Source: a virus. Taken from it: 38,046 nucleotides of DNA. The position numbers and the translations under genes are program-made. Shown piece by piece: positions 6,109 to 32,816 of this stretch. The stretch is from the IMG/VR virus record IMGVR_UViG_3300017971_000506, positions 1 through 38,046 of that record, one strand, 5' to 3'. The notes under the pieces were generated by a model. It worked only from the letters and a program-made list of their open reading frames with translations, made no database searches and had not been told where the DNA came from. Position 1 is the first letter of the stretch; every line of letters starts with the position of its first letter.

Positions 6109-6936
6109 TTAACCCTCCGTAACCTGGCCTAACGCTTCGCTTTGGTCCAGGACGTAAAGCGTATCCATACCGCAACCGATAAACGTATAACCGTCCTTTA
6201 TCAATTCCGAAAGCCGGGTCCGGCTTATTTCGGTCGCGTGTATCCCGACGGGGACGTCCCTTTCTTCGCAATGTCGCCGGACGTCCTGGACATTCGACAA
6301 AAGGTTTTCGTCGTCGACCTGGCCAGGGATACCAAAGGACCCGGCCAAATCATAAAGGCCGATAAGGACCGCGTCGATACGGTCGCCGTATTCGTGAATT
6401 ATCCGGGGTAACGCTTCGACGGCTTCGGCCGTTTCGACCATGATAGAAAAAAAGACGCGGTCGTTAAACGTCGCGAAATAATGGTCGGACGTCGCCCCGT
6501 AATTCGTGCAACGGGCCAGGGAATAGGACCGCCGACCGATCGGCGGAAAGAAAACGCGGTCGATAGCCCGGCGGACGTCGTCGACCGATCGGATAAGCGG
6601 GACGATTATTCCTTTAACGCCGATATCAAGAAACCGTTTTATTTCCAATTCGTCGTTAAGGCCGACCCGGACAAACGCTTCGGCCCCCCGGCTTTCGATC
6701 GCCCTTACGCAATTCGCCGCCGCGTCCTTTGTTATTGTGCTGTGTTCGGCGTCGATACAAACCCAATCGAAAGACGCGGCCATAATTTCGGCCAGGACCG
6801 GGGACCCGGAAAGTAACCAACCGCCCGTCGATACGTCCCCGGAAAAGATTTTATGTTTAACCGTCATTTCGTCCAGGGGTTTTAACAAGCCGAAATTTCG
6901 CGCCCAACGTGTCGGGCTTAACGCGTGTCTATTCAT
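6109..6936 (-). CDS. HpcH/HpaI-family aldolase (2-keto-3-deoxy acid aldolase)
   Basis: A class II pyruvate aldolase of 275 residues. Family catalytic positions are present: H65 in CIDAEHS, R90 in FVRVG, and metal ligands E168 (MVETAEA) and D196 (GLYDLAGSFG), plus PPIGRRSYS. Relatives (GarL, RhmA, HpaI) cleave or form 2-keto-3-deoxy sugar acids from pyruvate and an aldehyde. The start at 6936 is chosen for its GAAAGG ribosome site; it overlaps the upstream stop by 8 bp, and a second ATG at 6867 would give the usual family N-terminus. An unusual cargo for a phage; it may supply an ulosonic acid. Confidence 0.88.
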   Translation of the reverse strand: MNRHALSPTRWARNFGLLKPLDEMTVKHKIFSGDVSTGGWLLSGSPVLAEIMAASFDWVCIDAEHSTITKDAAANCVRAIESRGAEAFVRVGLNDELEIKRFLDIGVKGIIVPLIRSVDDVRRAIDRVFFPPIGRRSYSLARCTNYGATSDHYFATFNDRVFFSIMVETAEAVEALPRIIHEYGDRIDAVLIGLYDLAGSFGIPGQVDDENLLSNVQDVRRHCEERDVPVGIHATEISRTRLSELIKDGYTFIGCGMDTLYVLDQSEALGQVTEG

Positions 6937-7402
6937 TGTCGCCGCCTTTCGCTTTTTGCTTTGACCATGTAACCGGGATAACCGTTTCGACAATTTCCGG
7001 GACCTGGCCCGTTCGACCTTTCGTAATCCGAAGGGGTCCGGGTCCATAATGTAACCATAAATATTTCTTTATCTTATACGATTCGTTTTCGTGTCGCGTC
7101 GCGTCCTGGTAATATTGGACGTCGCCTTCGTAATAAGAAAACGCTATCCGAAATTCTATCGCCGCCGCCGATAACATAACCAGGACCCCGAAAGACAAAC
7201 GGTTTATTTCCCCGGCCCGGCCGCGTTCGACTAACTGTCGGGCGACGTCCCTTTCGAATAACGACTTGAAAGTATGCCCGGACAATTCCGGGAAAAGGTC
7301 GTCGGTCGATTCCTGGCCCTTGGCTTTTTGCTCTTGTTGTCTTATCGCGTGTATCCGTTCGCGGTTCGCGTCGTCGGCTTCGATAATGTCGTCGGTCGTC
7401 AT
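6929..7402 (-). CDS. Hypothetical early protein
   Basis: A 157-residue protein of unknown family. The N-terminus is charged and helical (residues 1-45, rich in Asp, Gln, Lys). The middle contains LSFGVLVMLSAAAIEFRIAFSYYEGDVQYYQDA, which may form a hydrophobic helical core rather than a membrane span. The C-terminus is basic (WSKQKAKGGDNE). It is flanked by overlaps: its ATG overlaps the ParB-like stop (7402-7399) and its stop overlaps the aldolase start. Confidence 0.7.
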   Translation of the reverse strand: MTTDDIIEADDANRERIHAIRQQEQKAKGQESTDDLFPELSGHTFKSLFERDVARQLVERGRAGEINRLSFGVLVMLSAAAIEFRIAFSYYEGDVQYYQDATRHENESYKIKKYLWLHYGPGPLRITKGRTGQVPEIVETVIPVTWSKQKAKGGDNE

Positions 7403-16672: not shown

Positions 16673-17233
16673 TTATCCGTCGTAAGAATAATCGAAACCG
16701 TTTCGGAAATCTATAACGTTAGCCGGGGGGTCGACCGTTACGGAATTGGTTTCGAAACTTGCGACGGCCGGGCTTATGTATTGGCTTTCGGCCCCTGTAT
16801 TCGCGGACGGGTTTAACCATAATTCGATCGACGGTAACGTATTCCCGAAATCGGACAAACGCAAGTCGCCGTAAAACCTTTCCTTTACGACGTTATTTGT
16901 CCGCCATTGCGACGCCGGAAACGTCGCGGTAAATTGCCCGGCCGGACCGTCGGTAACGGTTATCGTCGTTTCGGCCCAAAAGGACGTCGACGAAAGATCG
17001 GTCTTAAAACCGACGGTCCCGGTTTTGCCCGAAATGTCGATAGCGGCTTCGGCGACGCTATCGGTAACGGTCCCGGATATCGTAAAACCCGTAAACGATT
17101 TGTGATTAACGACGACGTTTTCGTTTGCCTGGACGTCGAAAACAAGGTCGACCGTCCTATCGGCCAGGACCCCCGAAGCAAAGGCGGCCGCTATTAACCC
17201 GATTAACGATATAAGATAATATAACCGTTTCAT
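16673..17233 (-). CDS. BppU-like baseplate/tail protein with N-terminal hydrophobic segment
   Basis: A 186-residue protein. Residues 1-24 (MKRLYYLISLIGLIAAAFAS at the start) look like a signal peptide, unusual for a virion protein. The remainder resembles the BppU N-terminal beta-sandwich found in baseplate upper proteins (AAIDISGKTGTVGFKTDLS, TITVTDGPAGQFTATFPAS). It could attach the fibre to the baseplate. The TAA stop is followed in the same frame by 75 more codons (16445-16672). Confidence 0.65.
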   Translation of the reverse strand: MKRLYYLISLIGLIAAAFASGVLADRTVDLVFDVQANENVVVNHKSFTGFTISGTVTDSVAEAAIDISGKTGTVGFKTDLSSTSFWAETTITVTDGPAGQFTATFPASQWRTNNVVKERFYGDLRLSDFGNTLPSIELWLNPSANTGAESQYISPAVASFETNSVTVDPPANVIDFRNGFDYSYDG

Positions 17234-24284: not shown

Positions 24285-24827
24285 TTATTTCTTTCGACGT
24301 CCAGGATAACCCCAAACGTCGGCTTTAAGTGTCATACGACGGACCCGGCCTTTTTCGTCGTCCGGGTCCGTGTCGATTTCGTGTAATTGGTGAAAAACAA
24401 AACCCCTAACGTTTTCGTTAAGCCAATTCACAAAGCCCAAACAATCGCCGTCGAAATGGCCCGGAAAATCCGTCGCGCTGTCTTTATGCAAACAATCGCG
24501 GACGGCCCCGATTAACGCTTCGACTTGTTGGCCGTCGTCGTCGTTATCGGCTTGCGTTTCCGCCAAGATCATAACCCGGCCGTGATATTCGTTTGTCCGT
24601 CCAAGCGTTTGTTGCGCGATACATTCGATCGAAAGCGCGGGTAACGTGTAACGCGGTTTCGTCCCGTCCTTTTTTATTTTCTTGTCCTTTGCCCGGCGGA
24701 TATTAACGGGGGTCCCCTGGCCGAAAACGGCTTTAATCGTATCGTCGTATTTAAGGCCGTCGACGAAACCTTGCGAAACCAAAAATTCGACATTACCGCT
24801 AACAGGATATTTATTTTCGTCCGTCAT
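24285..24827 (-). CDS. Tail terminator / minor tail-like protein
   Basis: A 180-residue protein: VEFLVSQGFVDGLKYDDTIKAVFGQG, LPALSIECIAQQTLGRTNEYHGRVMILAETQADNDDDGQQVEALIGAVRDCL, ending ADVWGYPGRRKK. This alpha/beta layout and its place among connector genes resemble tail completion/terminator proteins. The start overlaps the upstream stop as TAATG (24829-24825). Confidence 0.5.
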   Translation of the reverse strand: MTDENKYPVSGNVEFLVSQGFVDGLKYDDTIKAVFGQGTPVNIRRAKDKKIKKDGTKPRYTLPALSIECIAQQTLGRTNEYHGRVMILAETQADNDDDGQQVEALIGAVRDCLHKDSATDFPGHFDGDCLGFVNWLNENVRGFVFHQLHEIDTDPDDEKGRVRRMTLKADVWGYPGRRKK

Positions 24828-25285
24828 TATGCAAACGCCGATTTTCTCCGTAGGTTTTGGGCGTATCGTCTTTCGATCGCCCTTTGCATATCGAAAAATC
24901 TTTCCGTCGCGGCCGCCTGGACTATATCGTCGGCATTGTCCAGGGTTTCGATATAAGGGACCGTGTTATATATTTCGACGGACGGATTATTAAGGACCCG
25001 GCGGCGGTCGATTATACCGCCTTCGGCTTCGGCCAGGACCCGCGAATTAGTCCCCCAAGGGGTCCCGAAAACCCCTAACGCTTGCCAAGCAATCCACCAA
25101 CCCGCCCTTGCGCGGCCTTTGTGTTTCTTTTCTTCGGCGGCTAACCTGGTATGTCGGACGACGGCCCTTGTTAATTGTATCGCCTGGCCCGTAAGGACTT
25201 CGACGTCGGACCGCCTGGACGACCCGGCTAATTCGTTAATGGCCCGGTTAAACTCCCGGTCGATAAATTTTATATGGATAGACAT
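24827..25285 (-). CDS. HK97 gp10-like / neck protein
   Basis: A 152-residue protein with long helices (REFNRAINELAGSSRRSDVEVLTGQAIQLTRAVVRHTRLA) and the later segment VLNNPSVEIYNTVPYIETLDN, matching the pattern of HK97 gp10-family neck/tail-completion proteins in which a conserved N-x-xPYxxxLE/DN occurs. Its position after a head-closure-like gene fits. Confidence 0.65.
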   Translation of the reverse strand: MSIHIKFIDREFNRAINELAGSSRRSDVEVLTGQAIQLTRAVVRHTRLAAEEKKHKGRARAGWWIAWQALGVFGTPWGTNSRVLAEAEGGIIDRRRVLNNPSVEIYNTVPYIETLDNADDIVQAAATERFFDMQRAIERRYAQNLRRKSAFA

Positions 25286-25642
25286 TTAATCTTCGTCCCC
25301 GAATTCGTCGCCCAATTCCAAGCGGATTAAAATATTAGCCGGACCCGGACCAATCTTGTAAATCCGTAACCGGGTCCCGTCGGCCATTTCCAGGACGTCG
25401 CCTTCGTCGGTCGCCCCGATATTCGCCCGGTCCGCGTAAACGCTGAATTGGTAACGTTTGCGAAATCCCGAAAATTGCAATTCTTCGTCGGTTAATTGCT
25501 TCGCCCGGAAAACAGAAAAGGACCCGTCTTGTTGTTCTTTCCCGGCCGGGAAACGCTTAACCGTTTCGACGACGCCGGACGCGGACATATCCGCAAAAAT
25601 CCCGGCTATATCGCTTCGGATATTCGCTTCGGTTAATCCCAT
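25286..25642 (-). CDS. Head closure / connector-like protein
   Basis: A 118-residue beta-rich protein (RKRYQFSVYADRANI, GDVLEMADGTRLRIYKIGPGPANILIRLELGDEF), similar in size and strand pattern to head-completion (stopper) proteins that sit between connector and neck genes. It is inferred from shape and order: its stop abuts the gp10-like start. Confidence 0.5.
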   Translation of the reverse strand: MGLTEANIRSDIAGIFADMSASGVVETVKRFPAGKEQQDGSFSVFRAKQLTDEELQFSGFRKRYQFSVYADRANIGATDEGDVLEMADGTRLRIYKIGPGPANILIRLELGDEFGDED

Positions 25643-25644
25643 TG

Positions 25645-25971
25645 TTAAGCCCCTTCGACTATCGCGTTTTGATAACCTTTATCGGCTAACAGGGCGGCCG
25701 AATTTATCCAACCGACTAACCAGGTCCCCCGCAACTGGACCCGATACCAGGGGACGCCCCGTTTAACTTTCATAGACAAAAAAACAATATTCGCCCCGGC
25801 CTTTAATAACCTGGCCTTTTTCATCATTCTTAAACCGTGTCGAAAACCCCTAACGTCGACGACGGGCATTAAGGGGACGTCTTTAGAAATGCAAAGCCCG
25901 GACATTTTCAAACGTTCGAAAACGTCCTTTTGATCGTCCGGGACCTTTTCTTTTTTCCAAAGCCGAAACAT
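25645..25971 (-). CDS. Hypothetical head-tail region protein
   Basis: A 108-residue basic protein. The N-terminus is lysine-rich (MFRLWKKEKVPDDQKDVFER at the start). The second half has an SH3-like beta pattern (ANIVFLSMKVKRGVPWYRVQLRGTWLVGWINSAALL) as in secreted SH3/peptidoglycan-associated modules, but in a virion context this may be a connector piece. No family is certain. Confidence 0.55.
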   Translation of the reverse strand: MFRLWKKEKVPDDQKDVFERLKMSGLCISKDVPLMPVVDVRGFRHGLRMMKKARLLKAGANIVFLSMKVKRGVPWYRVQLRGTWLVGWINSAALLADKGYQNAIVEGA

Positions 25972-26021: not shown

Positions 26022-26708
26022 TTACAATACTTTGGAAAGCCCGACGGCTAACCGCCAATCCGCTTCCGTGTCTATGTCGATCGCCTGTAATTCCGGGACG
26101 ATAAAGGGCTTTGATTTCCCGCAAATCCGCGCCTTTTGCTTATCGAAAGCGTCCCCGCGATAGATATAAAACGCGCTGTTTTCTTCGTAAAGCGGGTCTA
26201 AATCTTGCGTCGGGATTAGCTTTTCGGGGTCATGGTTAACCGGGCGGCCGTCCGGCCAATAGAAACGGCTTTTCATTTCGTTAACCCCGTAAACGCTATC
26301 GGCCCCGGCTTGTAATTCTTCGTAAGCCGCGTCCAGGGTTTCGACCTGGATAAACGGGCTTGTCGCGTGTAACTGAATATAAGCGAAAGCCGGGCGACGG
26401 TCCGCGATATCCGCAAGAATTTTATTCATAGAAACCGCGTCGCCCTGTAACTTTGTCGGCCGGGGGTCGATCGTTACAGGGACGGCCAGGGTCCCCAATA
26501 GTCGCCGCCATTCCGTAAAGTAATCTAAACAATCCGTGTCGATAACGATAAGATCGACAAACGGACATTTCGCCAGGACCCGGACGGGCCAAAGCCAAAG
26601 CGGGTCCGGCCCCAACGTCCGAAAGTTTTTCGCCGGGACCCTTTGGCTATTTTCCTTTACGGGGACGATTCCTATAACCGTCGGTTTTTTTATTGTTGTT
26701 ACCGCCAT
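26022..26708 (-). CDS. CMP-sugar synthetase, acylneuraminate cytidylyltransferase-like
   Basis: A 228-residue cytidylyltransferase of the NeuA/KdsB superfamily. It contains the CTP-binding motif PVKENSQRVPAKNFR (16-30), LIVIDTD, LQGDAVSMNKILADI, the LHATSPF segment equivalent to LxPTSPL, ENSAFYIYR (NGAIY-like) and a closing DIDTEADWRLA. Such enzymes activate sialic or other ulosonic acids with CTP. With a GT42 transferase-like gene two genes upstream (27555), it most likely supplies CMP-sugar for phage-directed glycosylation. Confidence 0.82.
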   Translation of the reverse strand: MAVTTIKKPTVIGIVPVKENSQRVPAKNFRTLGPDPLWLWPVRVLAKCPFVDLIVIDTDCLDYFTEWRRLLGTLAVPVTIDPRPTKLQGDAVSMNKILADIADRRPAFAYIQLHATSPFIQVETLDAAYEELQAGADSVYGVNEMKSRFYWPDGRPVNHDPEKLIPTQDLDPLYEENSAFYIYRGDAFDKQKARICGKSKPFIVPELQAIDIDTEADWRLAVGLSKVL

Positions 26709-26710
26709 TT

Positions 26711-27433
26711 TTAACCGTCCTTTCTTATCATTACAAACGGCGTCGGCGTCCCGTCGATTTTAAGGGGGCCGATAATTTCCCAATCGTCCGCCGTCGATTC
26801 CAACCCGGCTATTTCGTCGATCGCTTCGGTAACGCCCGGACATTCGTTATAATGATAGTCGCCGAAAAAGACGGCCCCGCCCGGTTCGATTAACTGGCCG
26901 TAATTCTTAAAATCGTTAACGACGCCGTCGTAACTGTGTTCCCCGTCGACGTAAAGTAAATGGACCGTGTCGCGCAAATAGGCCCGGACGCGCTTAAAGA
27001 TTTTTTCGTCGGCCGAATTGCCTTCGAACAAGGCGAAATTTTGGACGCCGAAATAACGGATATTTCTATCGGCCCTTTCGATTGTAAGCGGGACCGGGTC
27101 GACGTCGCCGGGCAAACGCCCGGAAAAAATATCTATCCCGGCGTATTTCTCATAAGCCGCCTTAAACTTATGGTAAGAAATCGCGCAAAGGGACGACCCG
27201 TAAGCGACGCCGATTTCCAGGTAACAAAAGCGGTCCGCGAATTGTTGTCTTAACATATCGGCCAGGACGCAAAGAAACCGTAACCCCTGTTTATCGCAAG
27301 CCCGGCCGTCGATTGTATCGTCGACAAGTCGGGGGACGTCCAAAAATCCGTTTATGGATTTGTTTTCCGTTATCGCTTCGCGGGTTATCGGGTCGCCGGG
27401 TTTCCATACTATCGTTTTTATTTCGTCGGTCAT
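26711..27433 (-). CDS. SAM-dependent methyltransferase (Methyltransf_24-like)
   Basis: A 240-residue class I methyltransferase: SAM motif LEIGVAYGSSLCA (72-84), acidic residue in YAGIDIFSG, then LLYVDGEHSYDGVVNDFKNYGQLIEPGGAVFFGDYHY, the signature of Methyltransf_24 enzymes commonly found in glycan clusters, where they O-methylate sugars. It lies in the sugar cassette, 3 bp before the CMP-sugar synthetase. Copy E of the dispersed element ends 26 bp before its start (GGAAAGGAAAGG site). Confidence 0.8.
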   Translation of the reverse strand: MTDEIKTIVWKPGDPITREAITENKSINGFLDVPRLVDDTIDGRACDKQGLRFLCVLADMLRQQFADRFCYLEIGVAYGSSLCAISYHKFKAAYEKYAGIDIFSGRLPGDVDPVPLTIERADRNIRYFGVQNFALFEGNSADEKIFKRVRAYLRDTVHLLYVDGEHSYDGVVNDFKNYGQLIEPGGAVFFGDYHYNECPGVTEAIDEIAGLESTADDWEIIGPLKIDGTPTPFVMIRKDG

Positions 27434-27458
27434 GTTATCGCCTTTCCTTTCCTTTGTG

Positions 27459-27542
27459 CAAAGCCGCCGATTCCAGGGGTATAAAGACCCGCGACGCCTT
27501 GCGTTCGTCGTTTGTGGGCCAACGTCGGCCCTTTTTTTTCGG
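27459..27542 (+). repeat. Dispersed TATAAAGAC/T-tract element, copy E
   Basis: Contains CAAAGCCGCC (27459-27468), AGGGGTATAAAGACCCGCGA, GCGTTCGTCG, the 5-bp hairpin GGGCC-AACGTC-GGCCC (27516-27531) and eight T (27532-27539). It is nearly identical to copy D although the genes around them are unrelated. It separates the GT42-like gene from the methyltransferase gene. Confidence 0.8.
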
Positions 27543-27554
27543 CCAATCGGCCGC

Positions 27555-28232
27555 CTAACCGTCTAACCAGGTCCAGGACGGGAAATCGGCCGCGAAATAA
27601 TGCGCCAGGACCGACCCTATCGAAACGACTTCGCCGTCGTAAGCGTCCAGGGCCGCCCGGATATATTTTAAGTCGCCCCTTAATTGGTGGTTTCTATGTC
27701 GGTTTTCGATATACGCTTTATTAAAGTCGGTTTGCCAAGGCCGCGTTTCTTTCGAAAGGCCGCCGTGTGTTTTCTTCGAAGGGTGTAAAAACAAATCGTG
27801 TCCGCAAAGGACAATCTTTTCGGGTCGCATACCGACGGCGACGGCCAGGGCGAAAGACCCCATAAGCGGACGATAAGGGGCCAAATCATTTTCCCAACGT
27901 GTCGCGGCGGGTAATTGCGCGAAAGTTTTTTGGACCCGGATTTGTAACCCGGTTAAATGGTTCGTTTCGATTTCGTTAACCATTTCCATAGACAAACCAG
28001 GGACCCAAATAGTCGGCCGGATTTTCCCAAACTGGACGGCCGCCCGGACCGCCCGGCAATCTTCGACGGCTTCGCATATAAACCAATCGTCGACGACATA
28101 GCCCAACGCGTCGTCGGGGGCCAGGAAAAAATAATTACATCTAAAGACGCGGTCGTCCTGGTCGACGACCAGGTCCCGGACGGCTTCGCTTTGTGCGCTT
28201 GGTCCATTTCCGGCGACGATTATAGTTTTCAT
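27555..28232 (-). CDS. GT42 sialyltransferase-like protein (CstI/CstII type)
   Basis: A 225-residue protein with GT42 features in order: AGNGPSAQ (7-14) for CMP binding, VFRCNYFFL (29-37), GSFALAVAVGMRPEKIVLCGHDLFLH (125-150) matching TSGVYMxAxAxALGYxxIYLxGIDxY, and NHQLRGDLKYI (181-191). There H182 and D187 keep the spacing of the catalytic His and Asp in CstII GHSKNTDIK. The family transfers sialic acid from CMP-sialic acid. Neighbouring CMP-sugar synthetase and GT2 genes support transfer of an ulosonic acid to a phage or host glycan. Confidence 0.75.
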   Translation of the reverse strand: MKTIIVAGNGPSAQSEAVRDLVVDQDDRVFRCNYFFLAPDDALGYVVDDWFICEAVEDCRAVRAAVQFGKIRPTIWVPGLSMEMVNEIETNHLTGLQIRVQKTFAQLPAATRWENDLAPYRPLMGSFALAVAVGMRPEKIVLCGHDLFLHPSKKTHGGLSKETRPWQTDFNKAYIENRHRNHQLRGDLKYIRAALDAYDGEVVSIGSVLAHYFAADFPSWTWLDG

Positions 28233-29026
28233 AATGACATAACCCCCGAAAAGACGTCCGCTTGTTCTTTCGTAAAAGGGACGCCGCGTTTAAGCATTTC
28301 CGCCGCCGTATTCGTTACGGCCGTTTTAATTCGCCAACGTTTCCAAATCCCGACGGCCGCGTCCATAACTTCGGTATATCGCCAACGGTCGACGTAATAA
28401 TCATGGTCTAACGGTCCGTGATTATGAAAGAAAACCGCCGGGCTTGCGTATATGGTCCGTCCAAGATCGCGGGTTATTTGCAAGGTTTGGTCCCAATCTT
28501 CGAAACCCCCGGAAAATTCCGGGCGGTATTCGGTCGCGTCCAAAACGTCGCGGTCGTAAAGCGTACAACCCCCGGCCGCCGCGTCGCATTGGCCCCGGTA
28601 TTCGATCGGCTTAACCAGGATTTCGCGGCCCCGGACCATACGCGCCCCCGAATAGGTCCGGCCGTCGTCGTGTACCAAATTACCGACGACCGCCCCGCAA
28701 TTAAAACGATTCATAACGGCGACCATATTTGTTAACCATTTCGGACCGACTTTTTCGTCGTCGTCCATATAGACTAACCTTTCCGTTTCGACATATCGTA
28801 AAAACTCCCGGCGGCCCTGGACGCAAGAATAAAACTTATCGGACCATATAATCGAACAATCGTCGGCCGCTAATTGTGCTATGTGTTCTTTATGGTTTTC
28901 GTCGCTTGCGTTATCGTGTATCAAAATCCGATACGGATATCGCGTAAACTGTCGAATCGACCCGACGGCTTGCGTTAACAAAAACGATCGGTTATGACTT
29001 AATATTGCTATGGTTATTTCTTTCAT
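28229..29026 (-). CDS. Glycosyltransferase family 2
   Basis: A 265-residue GT-A glycosyltransferase: ITIAILSHNRSFLLTQAVGSI at the N-terminus, YRILIHDNAS, LVYMDDDEKVGPKWL with the DxD motif (88-90), then AAAGGCTLYDRDVLDATEYRPEFSGGFEDWDQTLQI. That last segment is the acceptor/catalytic ED region. ATG at 29026 is preferred over a TTG at 29059 because it begins the conserved strand. It overlaps the upstream gene by 35 bp and the GT42-like gene by 4 bp, so the sugar genes form one unit. Confidence 0.85.
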   Translation of the reverse strand: MKEITIAILSHNRSFLLTQAVGSIRQFTRYPYRILIHDNASDENHKEHIAQLAADDCSIIWSDKFYSCVQGRREFLRYVETERLVYMDDDEKVGPKWLTNMVAVMNRFNCGAVVGNLVHDDGRTYSGARMVRGREILVKPIEYRGQCDAAAGGCTLYDRDVLDATEYRPEFSGGFEDWDQTLQITRDLGRTIYASPAVFFHNHGPLDHDYYVDRWRYTEVMDAAVGIWKRWRIKTAVTNTAAEMLKRGVPFTKEQADVFSGVMSL

Positions 29027-29738
29027 TTTCGCAAGCCCGAATAAACGGGGTCCTATCAATATAATTTGTTTGAAATGCGCGGTTATCTTTCCCGTCCAGG
29101 TCTTTAAGAAATTCGATATATTCGCGGGGTTCTAAACTGTGCGCGATATGCCAGGACCCCGGCGGGGCGGACCTGGTTAAATACTCTTCGGCGGACCCCG
29201 CGTCGGTCGATAGTATCTTACAACGGTTAACGATAGCGACCCGGATAGGGTCGACCGTGTCGGCCGCGACGTAACAAAAAATAACCGTTTCGGCCCTGGC
29301 TATCAATTCGACCGGGGGCGGACCGTTCGCGATAATCGAATCGGTAAAGACGGCCGCGATATCGGCGGCCAAAGCCAATTCGACCGGGTCGCCCGACGTT
29401 AGAATAAGCCGACGATATTTTTTCTTTTCGGATATCGCCGGGACCGGGGCCGGGGGCGGATTTATCCTTACGAAAAATCTTTGGTCCGGCGGCGTGATTC
29501 TATGCAATATTTCGTAAACGCGGCGGCTTTCGACCCGGATTTCTTCGATAACAATTTCGCCCCAAGGGATATCCGGGACCCCGTTTAACGTAACGCCCTT
29601 GTCCTGGATTAAGGCCGTACAAAAAATCGACGGTTTCCAAAAGATCGCGACCGGGATTGTTTCGTCGGTTTCCCCGGATAACAGGGGGGCCGCCCCTTCG
29701 TCGGGCGTGTCATAGGTAAAGGGTAAAAAACTTTTCAT
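28992..29738 (-). CDS. Hypothetical protein, GT-B-like C-terminal half
   Basis: A 248-residue protein. The N-terminal half is unusual (MKSFLPFTYDTPDEGAAPLL at the start, then IPVAIFWKPSIFCTALIQDK). The C-terminal half has an alternating Rossmann pattern (RRLILTSGDPVELALAADIA, TVIFCYVAADTVDPIRVAIVNRCKILSTDAGSAEEYL), where the TDAGSAEEYL segment is like GT-B glycosyltransferases. As first gene of the sugar cassette it may be a glycosyltransferase, but no motif proves it. Confidence 0.6.
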   Translation of the reverse strand: MKSFLPFTYDTPDEGAAPLLSGETDETIPVAIFWKPSIFCTALIQDKGVTLNGVPDIPWGEIVIEEIRVESRRVYEILHRITPPDQRFFVRINPPPAPVPAISEKKKYRRLILTSGDPVELALAADIAAVFTDSIIANGPPPVELIARAETVIFCYVAADTVDPIRVAIVNRCKILSTDAGSAEEYLTRSAPPGSWHIAHSLEPREYIEFLKDLDGKDNRAFQTNYIDRTPFIRACENERNNHSNIKS

Positions 29739-29867: not shown

Positions 29868-30800
29868 CTATTCGATCGTCGTAATAAGGCGGTGCGCCCT
29901 GTCGACCAACCTTTTTTCGACGCTGTTATGTTTTACGCGGACCATGTCGCTTTCGCGGCCTTCGTCGCGGTATGTTTCGACCATCATATCGGTAGGGGTC
30001 GAATCGCGCCAAAGCATTGTCCGCCCGTAATGGGGGACGCTTCGAAGGTTCTGTCCGTCGTAAACAATGAAAAGCCCGAATATCGTAGACGCCCAAATAT
30101 CGGACCCGGCTTGTTTAAGCCCGGAAAAATAGACCCCGTCCAGGCCCAAAATTTCCGCCAACTGCGCGTCGGAAATGGTCGTCGTTTGGATATTGCCGCC
30201 CCCGTAAGCGCGGTTTTTGATATCGTCGGTCGACCTAAGATTGGTCCGGGCCTTGTTGTTACCGATTCCGATAATACGCGCCCCGCCGCCGACCATACCG
30301 TTAACCTGGTCGATAAGCGCGTTTTTCGCCAAGTCGACGTCTTTTACGGGCTGTGCGTTCGTCGCGTCGTCCCATTTCGCGATAGCGTCGTCCTTATACG
30401 ACGTCGACGTCGCGAAAGCGATTGTCGAAATACGCTTTTCGCGGTTCAACTGAAGATAATAACGGCAATGGTCCGCCGCCGAAACTTCGGCGTCGAAATA
30501 GGCCCCCAAGACCAAAGCGTCGTCGTCGTCGACAGGTTCGACAAGACCCCGCTTTTTGCAATTATATGTATCCTCTTCGACTTCGTGTACGACTTCGTTA
30601 TAGTAACCCGACGTCCCGCGCTTGTCGTCGACGGCCTTTGTCTTAACCGTCGAAAACGCGATTTTTGAGAAACTGCCGTTTCTCGCGTCGACGGGCAAAA
30701 GCGGCATAACTTCCAAGCCGACAAACTGCCCGGCCCCCAACATATTTTCCTGGATAACTTGCGCGATATCCTGTCTAAATGTCGCGTTTCCTGTCTGCAT
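29868..30800 (-). CDS. Major capsid protein (HK97 fold, lambda gpE-like)
   Basis: A 310-residue capsid protein by sequence pattern and position after the decoration protein: FRQDIAQVIQENMLGAGQFVGLEVMPLLPVDARNGSFSKI near the N-terminus, ISTIAFATSTSY, WDDATNAQPVKDVDLAKNALIDQV, and a C-terminal VETYRDEGRESDMVRVKHNSVEKRL segment typical of phage coat proteins. Its ribosome site GGAGGG with TTAGAAAATG is shared with the decoration gene, consistent with high expression. Confidence 0.85.
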   Translation of the reverse strand: MQTGNATFRQDIAQVIQENMLGAGQFVGLEVMPLLPVDARNGSFSKIAFSTVKTKAVDDKRGTSGYYNEVVHEVEEDTYNCKKRGLVEPVDDDDALVLGAYFDAEVSAADHCRYYLQLNREKRISTIAFATSTSYKDDAIAKWDDATNAQPVKDVDLAKNALIDQVNGMVGGGARIIGIGNNKARTNLRSTDDIKNRAYGGGNIQTTTISDAQLAEILGLDGVYFSGLKQAGSDIWASTIFGLFIVYDGQNLRSVPHYGRTMLWRDSTPTDMMVETYRDEGRESDMVRVKHNSVEKRLVDRAHRLITTIE

Positions 30801-31280: not shown

Positions 31281-31877
31281 CTATTTCTTGTTTATCCGGG
31301 CGACATAGTCTTTATGTAATCCCGGAAATTCTTTCGCGGCTTTCCGCGTCGCTTCGCCTTTCGTAAGGCCGTCCGCTTCGAAACCTTCGACCTTATCTTC
31401 GAATTTTTCCGGCCCGGCTTCGGGCGTGAAATCGACGGCGTCCGTCCCGTCCGCGTCGCCCGACTTGGCTTTCGACAATTTCGTTTCAAGCCGCTTTATC
31501 CAAGCGTCTTTCGTTTCGTCGTCGGAAAGTTCGGCGGTTTCGATAACGAAAGCCGGGTCCTTATACTTTTCGCCCCGGCGTTTGATACGATCGACCCCGG
31601 CCGACAAACCTTCGTCGTAAGCCGCGTCGGTTTTTTCCTTTACGCTTTGCGCGTCCTGGCCGTCCCCTTCGCCCTGGCCTTCGCCTTCGCCTTCGCCTTC
31701 GGTCCCGGCGTCCTGGCCGTCCCCTTCGCCCTGGCCTTCGCCTTCGCCTTCGGTCCCGGCGTCCTGGCCGTCGCCTTCGCCCTGGTTATCCTGTCCGGCG
31801 TCCTGGCCGTCGACTTTCTCTTCGCCGTCGGCTTCGGCCCCGGCGTCCTGTCCTTCGACTTTTTCTTCGTCTGCCAT
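31281..31877 (-). CDS. Nested scaffold protein from internal in-frame start
   Basis: ATG at 31877 lies in frame inside the protease-scaffold gene and is preceded by a near-perfect Shine-Dalgarno (GGAGGG, 31890-31885, 7-nt spacing). It would yield a 198-residue protein beginning MADEEKVEGQ: an acidic repeat tail followed by the C-terminal helices. Lambda C/Nu3 uses the same design, where the smaller product is the scaffold. This is strongly suggested here by the ribosome site, which matches those of the decoration and capsid genes. Confidence 0.7.
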   Translation of the reverse strand: MADEEKVEGQDAGAEADGEEKVDGQDAGQDNQGEGDGQDAGTEGEGEGQGEGDGQDAGTEGEGEGEGQGEGDGQDAQSVKEKTDAAYDEGLSAGVDRIKRRGEKYKDPAFVIETAELSDDETKDAWIKRLETKLSKAKSGDADGTDAVDFTPEAGPEKFEDKVEGFEADGLTKGEATRKAAKEFPGLHKDYVARINKK

Positions 31878-32816
31878 TTTGTAACCCTCCGTTTTTTGTT
31901 CGCCGTCGAAATAACGGTCTAATATTCCCGCTATAATTTCGGGGTGTTCAGAAATAAACTTTTCGGCTTGTTCGGTCCAATAATCCGGGCGACCGAAAAG
32001 CCCGTCGTTTGCCGCCCCTTCGTCGACGACGTCGCAATGGTGCAACTCTTTAACCCTTGCGTGCGGTAGCCAATACGGGTCCGATTCGGCCGGATATCCC
32101 GGCTTTCCCTTGTTGGCCGGGTCCGGGTTAACGGACGTATCGCGCTTAAAAACGATCGACATAGCGAAAGCGTCGGGGTCCTCTTCGGCCAGGTCTAAAA
32201 TATAGTTTCTAAGGTCCCCGTCGGGACTGTTAGCGGCGGCGTCGAACAAGTGCAGGTCGGCCCGGACCCGGTCTTGGTCCCGTCTAAATTCGTGCAACCT
32301 GCCGACAGCCGTACCAACCGCCCGACTACAAGCGTTAGGGTGGTCGAATCGTGATTTTGTCCCGGTCGGTTCTTTTGCGTTTCCTTTTTCGGCGACTTGG
32401 TCCAACATGATTTCGTCGACATATTTTCCATGTCCTTTCGCTTCGCCTTTGGATACGACCGAAATACCGTAAATTATTCCGGCGTCGCGGTCGATATCGC
32501 CGACCGCCGCGACGTCCGCGAAACGTTCTAACCTTTTCGCGTTCGATTGCCTGGACCCAATCGGGAAAGCATTAACCAGGGCGATAGACGGTTTACCGTC
32601 TTTTGTTTCGATCGTCTTTTGACGGTAACGAAATTTCTTATCGTCGGGGTCGACTTGTCGGTAACGGAAAAGCGTATCGGTTTCGTCCAGGCCGTCCGAT
32701 TTGTAATCGTGTTCGACAATCCATTTTTTCGACGATTCTTTCGTCCAACCCGCCGCCTTGTAAAACAAAACGCTTTGAACGTGTCGCCCTTTGCCTTGTC
32801 GTCCAACCGTCGGCAT
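31281..32816 (-). CDS. Prohead protease fused to scaffold
   Basis: A 511-residue protein. The N-terminus (GWTKESSKKWIVEHDYKSDG, LFRYRQVDPDDKKFRYRQ) and the region 105-225 resemble phage prohead proteases of the S78-like fold; likely catalytic H159 (RFDHPNA) and S220 (FAMSIVF) can be seen. A linker follows, then residues 314-511: an acidic, Gln/Gly-rich repeat segment (GEGDGQDAGTEGEGEG) and a C-terminal helical part (TKDAWIKRLETKLSKAKSG, FPGLHKDYVARI) of scaffold type. An internal start at 31877 could produce the scaffold alone. Confidence 0.8.
   Translation of the reverse strand: MPTVGRQGKGRHVQSVLFYKAAGWTKESSKKWIVEHDYKSDGLDETDTLFRYRQVDPDDKKFRYRQKTIETKDGKPSIALVNAFPIGSRQSNAKRLERFADVAAVGDIDRDAGIIYGISVVSKGEAKGHGKYVDEIMLDQVAEKGNAKEPTGTKSRFDHPNACSRAVGTAVGRLHEFRRDQDRVRADLHLFDAAANSPDGDLRNYILDLAEEDPDAFAMSIVFKRDTSVNPDPANKGKPGYPAESDPYWLPHARVKELHHCDVVDEGAANDGLFGRPDYWTEQAEKFISEHPEIIAGILDRYFDGEQKTEGYKMADEEKVEGQDAGAEADGEEKVDGQDAGQDNQGEGDGQDAGTEGEGEGQGEGDGQDAGTEGEGEGEGQGEGDGQDAQSVKEKTDAAYDEGLSAGVDRIKRRGEKYKDPAFVIETAELSDDETKDAWIKRLETKLSKAKSGDADGTDAVDFTPEAGPEKFEDKVEGFEADGLTKGEATRKAAKEFPGLHKDYVARINKK
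31640..31815 (-). repeat. Tandem repeats in the scaffold coding region
   Basis: Three imperfect direct repeats of roughly 45-55 bp code for GEGDGQDAG plus TEGEGEG-type units. The unit length varies by multiples of six bases, so the frame is kept. The number of copies is probably variable between strains. Confidence 0.75.

Follow-up and report, generated by a model that had tools for sequence, protein, structure and literature searches.

A cassette of five genes, whose products would together activate and transfer an acidic sugar, lies within the head module of an uncultivated virus known from IMG/VR record IMGVR_UViG_3300017971_000506. The DNA studied (38,046 bases, called the window below) is the whole of that record, and a 17-base repeat is common to both of its ends, as expected for a circular assembly. 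The cassette is composed of five co-directional open reading frames on the minus strand between the major capsid gene and the presumed connector genes, and their order after the capsid gene is: a GT-B-like protein, a glycosyltransferase of family GT2, a GT42-like protein, a Methyltransf_24 methyltransferase and a cytidylyltransferase, followed by four small genes. Neighbouring frames overlap at 28992-29026 (GT-B-like and GT2) and at 28229-28232 (GT2 and GT42-like), and a gap of 2 bases separates the methyltransferase and cytidylyltransferase genes. A preliminary description of this DNA had reported five contiguous and partly overlapping genes between capsid and connectors; all of them were recovered on the minus strand where it had placed them, and the overlaps were borne out. 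A related set of genes occupies the same place in a second viral contig of 13 kb (L013), the terminase and capsid of which are 59% and 58% identical to those of the window. Features are listed in Table 1.

Table 1. Genes of the cassette, its neighbours and the proposed aldolase partner in the window
Feature	Coordinates	Strand	Evidence and remarks
Acylneuraminate-type CTP:ulosonate cytidylyltransferase	26022..26708	minus	PF02348 (CTP_transf_3) E 2.8e-13; PDB NeuA 9t4z E 2.6e-11
S-adenosylmethionine (SAM)-dependent methyltransferase, Methyltransf_24	26711..27433	minus	PF13578 E 4.9e-13; the L013 gene in this position is a diverged Methyltransf_24
GT42-fold glycosyltransferase	27555..28232	minus	PDB profile matches to CstI/CstII; Foldseek; 57% identical in L013
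GT2-type glycosyltransferase	28229..29026	minus	PF00535 E 2.9e-14; 45% identical in L013, DDD motif retained
GT-B-like protein (unproven)	28992..29738	minus	Opens the cassette, 130 bases past the major capsid gene; 38% identical to the L013 protein at the same place
Major capsid protein	29868..30800	minus	phrog_1005 major head protein E 2.4e-20; 58% identical in L013; upstream neighbour of the cassette, candidate acceptor
Four small genes following the cassette, presumed head-tail connectors	24285..25971	minus	Position; L013 has homologs in matching order
HpcH/HpaI-type pyruvate (2-keto-3-deoxy acid) aldolase	6109..7047	minus	PF03328 E 1.5e-21; PDB 4b5s E 1.9e-27; proposed ulosonate maker

The product of the third cassette gene had been described as GT42-like, with an NHQxxxD motif that has the His/Asp spacing of the catalytic residues, and this assignment has been strengthened step by step as relatives were added to the query. 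The single sequence matched Pfam CST-I (E 5.7e-4, below the cut-off) and PDB entries (E 0.006) by its N-terminus only. A profile of two rows (A1) reached CstII at E 8.5e-6 with both halves in register, and one of eight rows (A11), built with alphaproteobacterial and other bridge proteins from genome searches, matched CstI at E 5.7e-10 and CstII at E 1.6e-8, with nine distinct GT42 sequences found and no other family below E 0.09 in PDB. AlphaFold with the two-row alignment gave a predicted local distance difference test score (pLDDT) of 32, while the later model, which used the bridge homologs from genomes, attained a pLDDT of 66 and a predicted template modelling (TM) score of 0.70. In the Foldseek comparison of this model with PDB, which the preliminary description had proposed beforehand, all 15 matches at E<1e-3 were GT42 sialyltransferases (probability 1.00, TM 0.44-0.56) and none was to another fold; GT29 sialyltransferases appeared among the weak matches. 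Membership of the GT42 fold is thus a firm prediction from profiles and model.

The motif itself is present as N181-H182-Q-x-x-x-D187. H182 aligns with CstII His188, the catalytic base, and R121 with Arg129 (roles given in PMC4202792), both positions being invariant across all 8 relatives. N33, R121, D146 and H182 are retained in both phage proteins. Ser132, Tyr156 and Tyr162 of CstII, of which the two tyrosines lie at the phosphate of the cytidine monophosphate (CMP) donor, are replaced in both phage proteins (M124, F148 and K154 in the window, by alignment), and the bridge relatives, too, lack strict conservation at these positions. Because of these replacements the claim is held at the level of the fold and not of a sialyltransferase; donor use may differ from that of CstII, and CMP-N-acetylneuraminic acid (CMP-Neu5Ac) is not to be assumed. 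A direct comparison of the profile of the phage pair with the viral GT29 profile was not significant (probability 3%), and a scan with the single GT42-like sequence alone gave no matches. A PF06002 search of 210 gammaproteobacterial genomes was likewise without a match, as were its control genomes, so that search shows nothing. Among the bacterial bridge proteins, which have no NeuA gene nearby, there is an alphaproteobacterial fusion (L194:1471-2787) of a Kdo-transferase N-terminal domain (PF04413, E 2.8e-5) with a GT42-like domain, with relatives in L195, L199, L200 and, at the end of a long protein, L201; this domain hints that the GT42-like branch is tied to ulosonate chemistry.

The last cassette gene had been described as NeuA-like, and domain and structure searches uphold this identity (Table 1). 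The enzyme also matches NCBIfam PseF at E 3.3e-19, where its 69 bits fall far under the cut-off of 205.7, so it is a member of the family and not an equivalog. A lack of residues binding cytidine triphosphate (CTP) had been named as grounds for refuting the assignment; K18, S21, R23, K27, N28, D211 and D213 are invariant across 17 relatives, with the KN and IDID motifs retained. Lys18 presumably stands where Neisseria meningitidis NeuA has Arg12. The nearest enzymes in sequence are alphaproteobacterial (40-43% identity). In the tree, which has long branches and moderate support, the window enzyme pairs with that of L013 (87/71) and both join a viral clade linked to aldolases (91/83). The logic of the earlier suggestion, that a cytidylyltransferase supplies the donor of a GT42 enzyme, is supported.

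Of the remaining members, the GT2 and methyltransferase identities proved right (Table 1), and translation of the GT2 gene likely begins at the ATG at 29026 rather than at the listed TTG at 29059. The GT-B-like label was overstated: the protein has no match in Pfam, PHROG or NCBIfam, and a C-terminal KIxSxDAGxAEEYL segment resembles, by eye, the donor-binding part of GT4 enzymes, which leaves the assignment a guess. A role in DNA modification, raised by the PHROG label "DNA methyltransferase" on the methyltransferase, was rejected because Pfam gives Methyltransf_24 and the neighbouring genes encode glycan enzymes. Family searches, PHROG included, gave no match naming any of the four small downstream genes.

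In L013 the genes at this place encode GT-B-like, GT2 and GT42-like proteins, a radical SAM/SPASM protein, a diverged Methyltransf_24 protein and a cytidylyltransferase; the radical SAM/SPASM gene (L013:9084-10535) is inserted between the GT42-like and methyltransferase genes and has no counterpart in the window cassette. The identity of the two GT42-like proteins is on a par with that of the capsids. Between the cassette genes of the two phages third codon positions are about 30% identical and first and second positions 50-72%, and capsid and portal behave alike. In L003 and L048, with capsids about 27-28% identical, the capsid gene is followed by small head-tail-like genes with no cassette genes between. 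The shared position, the capsid-like codon pattern and the absence from L003 and L048 indicate that the cassette is not there by chance; judged by these comparisons it is a selected and maintained insertion under purifying selection similar to that on the capsid.

As to the origin of the sugar, the window encodes an HpcH/HpaI-type aldolase, overlooked in the preliminary description and probably starting at the ATG at 6867. Members of this class (HpaI, GarL, YfaU) form 2-keto-3-deoxy acids from pyruvate and aldehydes. The window enzyme matches NCBIfam HpaI (5.4e-35) and GarL (1.5e-34), both below the equivalog cut-offs, and H102, R127, D141, E205 and D233 are invariant, so that metal and catalytic residues are retained. 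No gene of the NeuB or KdsA families, the phosphoenolpyruvate (PEP)-dependent synthases, was found in the window genome, and among 34 virus records NeuB occurred in 1/34 and the KdsA family in 0/34, control genomes being positive in both searches. All 26 viral loci whose NeuA is a close relative (they form about 14 clusters when grouped at 70% identity) have an HpaI-type gene within about 6.5 kb, and none of the six with a distant NeuA does. In the opposite direction, NeuA is found at 63 of the 75 viral aldolase loci, and at 58 of the 75 there is a GT29 sialyltransferase as well; a contig end is close by in six of the 12 loci without NeuA. These viral glycan clusters (L015-L040, L118-L192), many of them marine, often have, after the aldolase, a protein in which a GmhA-like isomerase is joined to a second domain, which is HAD-like; late sigma factor genes near several of the aldolase-NeuA loci point to T4-like viruses. 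PHROGs family phrog_4603 ("alpha-2,3-sialyltransferase") is matched by a viral NGPSL protein. Queries with NeuA and GT29 against 50,697 phage records found no match, and the aldolase query found two, in Staphylococcus phage records OR844989 (282 kb) and OR850016 (3 kb), which are probably host contamination, given the bacterial-looking gene and the record sizes; a scan with the single aldolase sequence alone had no matches. This gene neighbourhood evidence gives good support to an aldolase-NeuA pathway in marine viruses taken together, and the link of the window aldolase to the cassette is circumstantial.

As the CstII fold is common to GT29 and GT42 (PMC1508147), the window set of aldolase, cytidylyltransferase and sialyltransferase-fold enzyme appears the same in kind as the viral GT29 sets. 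It may tentatively be suggested that all belong to an unrecognised viral route to CMP-ulosonates, in which an HpcH/HpaI aldolase would replace NeuB or KdsA and supply a dedicated cytidylyltransferase together with an enzyme of sialyltransferase fold; the latter would be GT29 in T4-like marine phages and, in the present temperate phage, GT42, which would there decorate the virion. For the window we propose, with moderate confidence, a phage pathway which activates and transfers a 3-deoxy-2-ulosonic acid, sialic- or Kdo-like, most likely to the virion. The aldolase would join pyruvate and an aldehyde, giving a 2-keto-3-deoxy acid. The NeuA-type enzyme, with its family and catalytic residues in place, would convert this presumed substrate to a CMP-sugar, which the GT42-fold enzyme would transfer with H182 as the base. 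GT2, and perhaps the GT-B-like protein, may lay down the acceptor sugar, the methyltransferase may cap the product, and the target would be the virion, chiefly the capsid.

Several observations weigh against this proposal. The structural model of the GT42-like protein is moderate (pLDDT 66, TM about 0.5) and three CstII residues are replaced, as described. The gene for the window aldolase adjoins an SSB gene at a distance of 19 kb from the cassette, and in the tree its product is not part of the viral aldolase clade linked to NeuA. Among cellular loci of the NeuA subfamily only 3/69 have an HpaI neighbour. It is accordingly possible, if somewhat less probable than the phage's own synthesis, that an ulosonate made by the host (Kdo, legionaminic or pseudaminic acid) is used and that the aldolase gene serves metabolism unrelated to the cassette, an alternative which concerns only the source of the sugar and fits either target. 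Apart from the distance of the aldolase in position and tree, the resemblance of the cytidylyltransferase to PseF and to alphaproteobacterial enzymes without an aldolase neighbour speaks for a host-made sugar; the near-universal aldolase partnership in viruses, where NeuB and KdsA are nearly absent, speaks against it. In cells (L049-L108) the NeuA subfamily stands beside a phosphoglycerate-dehydrogenase-like 2-hydroxyacid dehydrogenase in 43/69 loci, other frequent neighbours being GT2, SDR and an MptE-like NGPSL protein; this is possibly another uncharacterised CMP-acid-sugar pathway. L077 and L103 are cellular loci at which HpaI is found together with NeuA, a transferase of the NGPS type and a gene similar to Methyltransf_24. 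L013 is too short to show an aldolase.

As for the target, the virion is preferred because in both phages the cassette directly follows the capsid gene, within the operon of late structural genes, and this genomic position favours virion glycosylation over a change of the host surface. The same enzymes could nevertheless place an acidic CMP-derived sugar on lipopolysaccharide or capsule, resulting in a superinfection block or exclusion, a serotype change or lysogenic conversion. The phage does encode an integrase, known GT42 enzymes modify lipooligosaccharide (PMC4202792), and prophage nonulosonate genes that alter the host capsule are known (epaA/epaB in Acinetobacter baumannii, PMC12053666). 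This is nonetheless considered less likely than virion glycosylation, the cassette being placed among the late head genes, in the direction of the capsid genes, rather than at a prophage end, and no flippase or polymerase having been found among the cassette and window genes put through family searches. It is improbable that the GT42-fold protein has no activity or moves some other nucleotide-linked group, the CMP-sugar being made for another use, for although the three CstII residues are replaced in both phage proteins, N33, R121, D146 and H182 are kept in both and conservation equals that of the capsid.

Glycosylation by phages is known, and virion glycosylation has been reported for mycobacteriophage Che8 and its relatives (Freeman 2023, as cited in PMC11256854); as far as that citation goes, phage-encoded glycosyltransferases modify capsid proteins in Che8, whereas here only genomic position points to the virion. 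Unlike the classical sialic acid and Kdo pathways, the window is without a PEP-dependent synthase. To our knowledge Che8-type systems have no cytidylyltransferase, GT42 or ulosonate step. Prophage epaA/epaB are likewise phage genes in nonulosonic acid chemistry, but these two genes epimerise host-made pseudaminic acid in the capsule and bring no activation or transfer enzymes (PMC12053666). With CstI and CstII of Campylobacter the GT42-like protein shares the fold, the NGPS and FRxN motifs and the equivalents of Arg129, Asp154 and His188; it differs from them in its short length (225 amino acids), the missing C-terminal membrane-association region, the replaced Ser132, Tyr156 and Tyr162 and the phage head-module context. 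The cytidylyltransferase has the CTP_transf_3 domain and the KN and IDID motifs of NeuA and PseF, but scores far under the PseF cut-off and forms a subfamily of its own, linked to aldolases in viruses. The aldolase belongs with HpaI, GarL and YfaU to the class II pyruvate aldolases and keeps the catalytic residues, yet a biosynthetic role is proposed for it where the known members are catabolic.

Genes for neuA have been listed among marine viral genes (PMC10653327); the "cytidylyltransferase" genes of cyanophage papers were considered and rejected as NeuA, being NMNAT-like or glycerol-3-phosphate types. No paper describing a NeuA-GT42 cassette or an aldolase-NeuA-GT29 association was found in the open-licence literature, in agreement with the earlier remark that no described phage cassette combines these steps, and a self-activated acidic sugar with a sialyltransferase-fold enzyme beside a capsid gene is undescribed in the records and literature searched. 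Negatively charged surface sugars could alter adsorption, stability or recognition of the particle. The aldolase partnership points to a new CMP-ulosonate biosynthetic route across marine viruses, and the 50,697 phage records hold no cultured relative with these genes.

The rest of the gene content, with an integrase, a GpA-type terminase, a lambda-type portal and tape measure and a phrog_1005 capsid, identifies the source of the window as an uncultivated temperate tailed phage, the terminase of which has nearest relatives among phage records just 26-33% identical. A search for anti-phage defence families in the window gave no matches, and promoter and terminator scans of it were near chance level and were not used. 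Between the integrase and DUF2303 genes a radical SAM protein with a weak PA0069-family match is encoded (1434-2264). The protein at 31281-32816, between the portal and decoration-like genes, carries a long acidic repeat of the GEGDGQDAG type which is missing from its L013 homolog. In the tail region a weak match to the carbohydrate-binding module CBM96 (16673-17233, E 5e-4) is compatible with a possible role in receptor binding.

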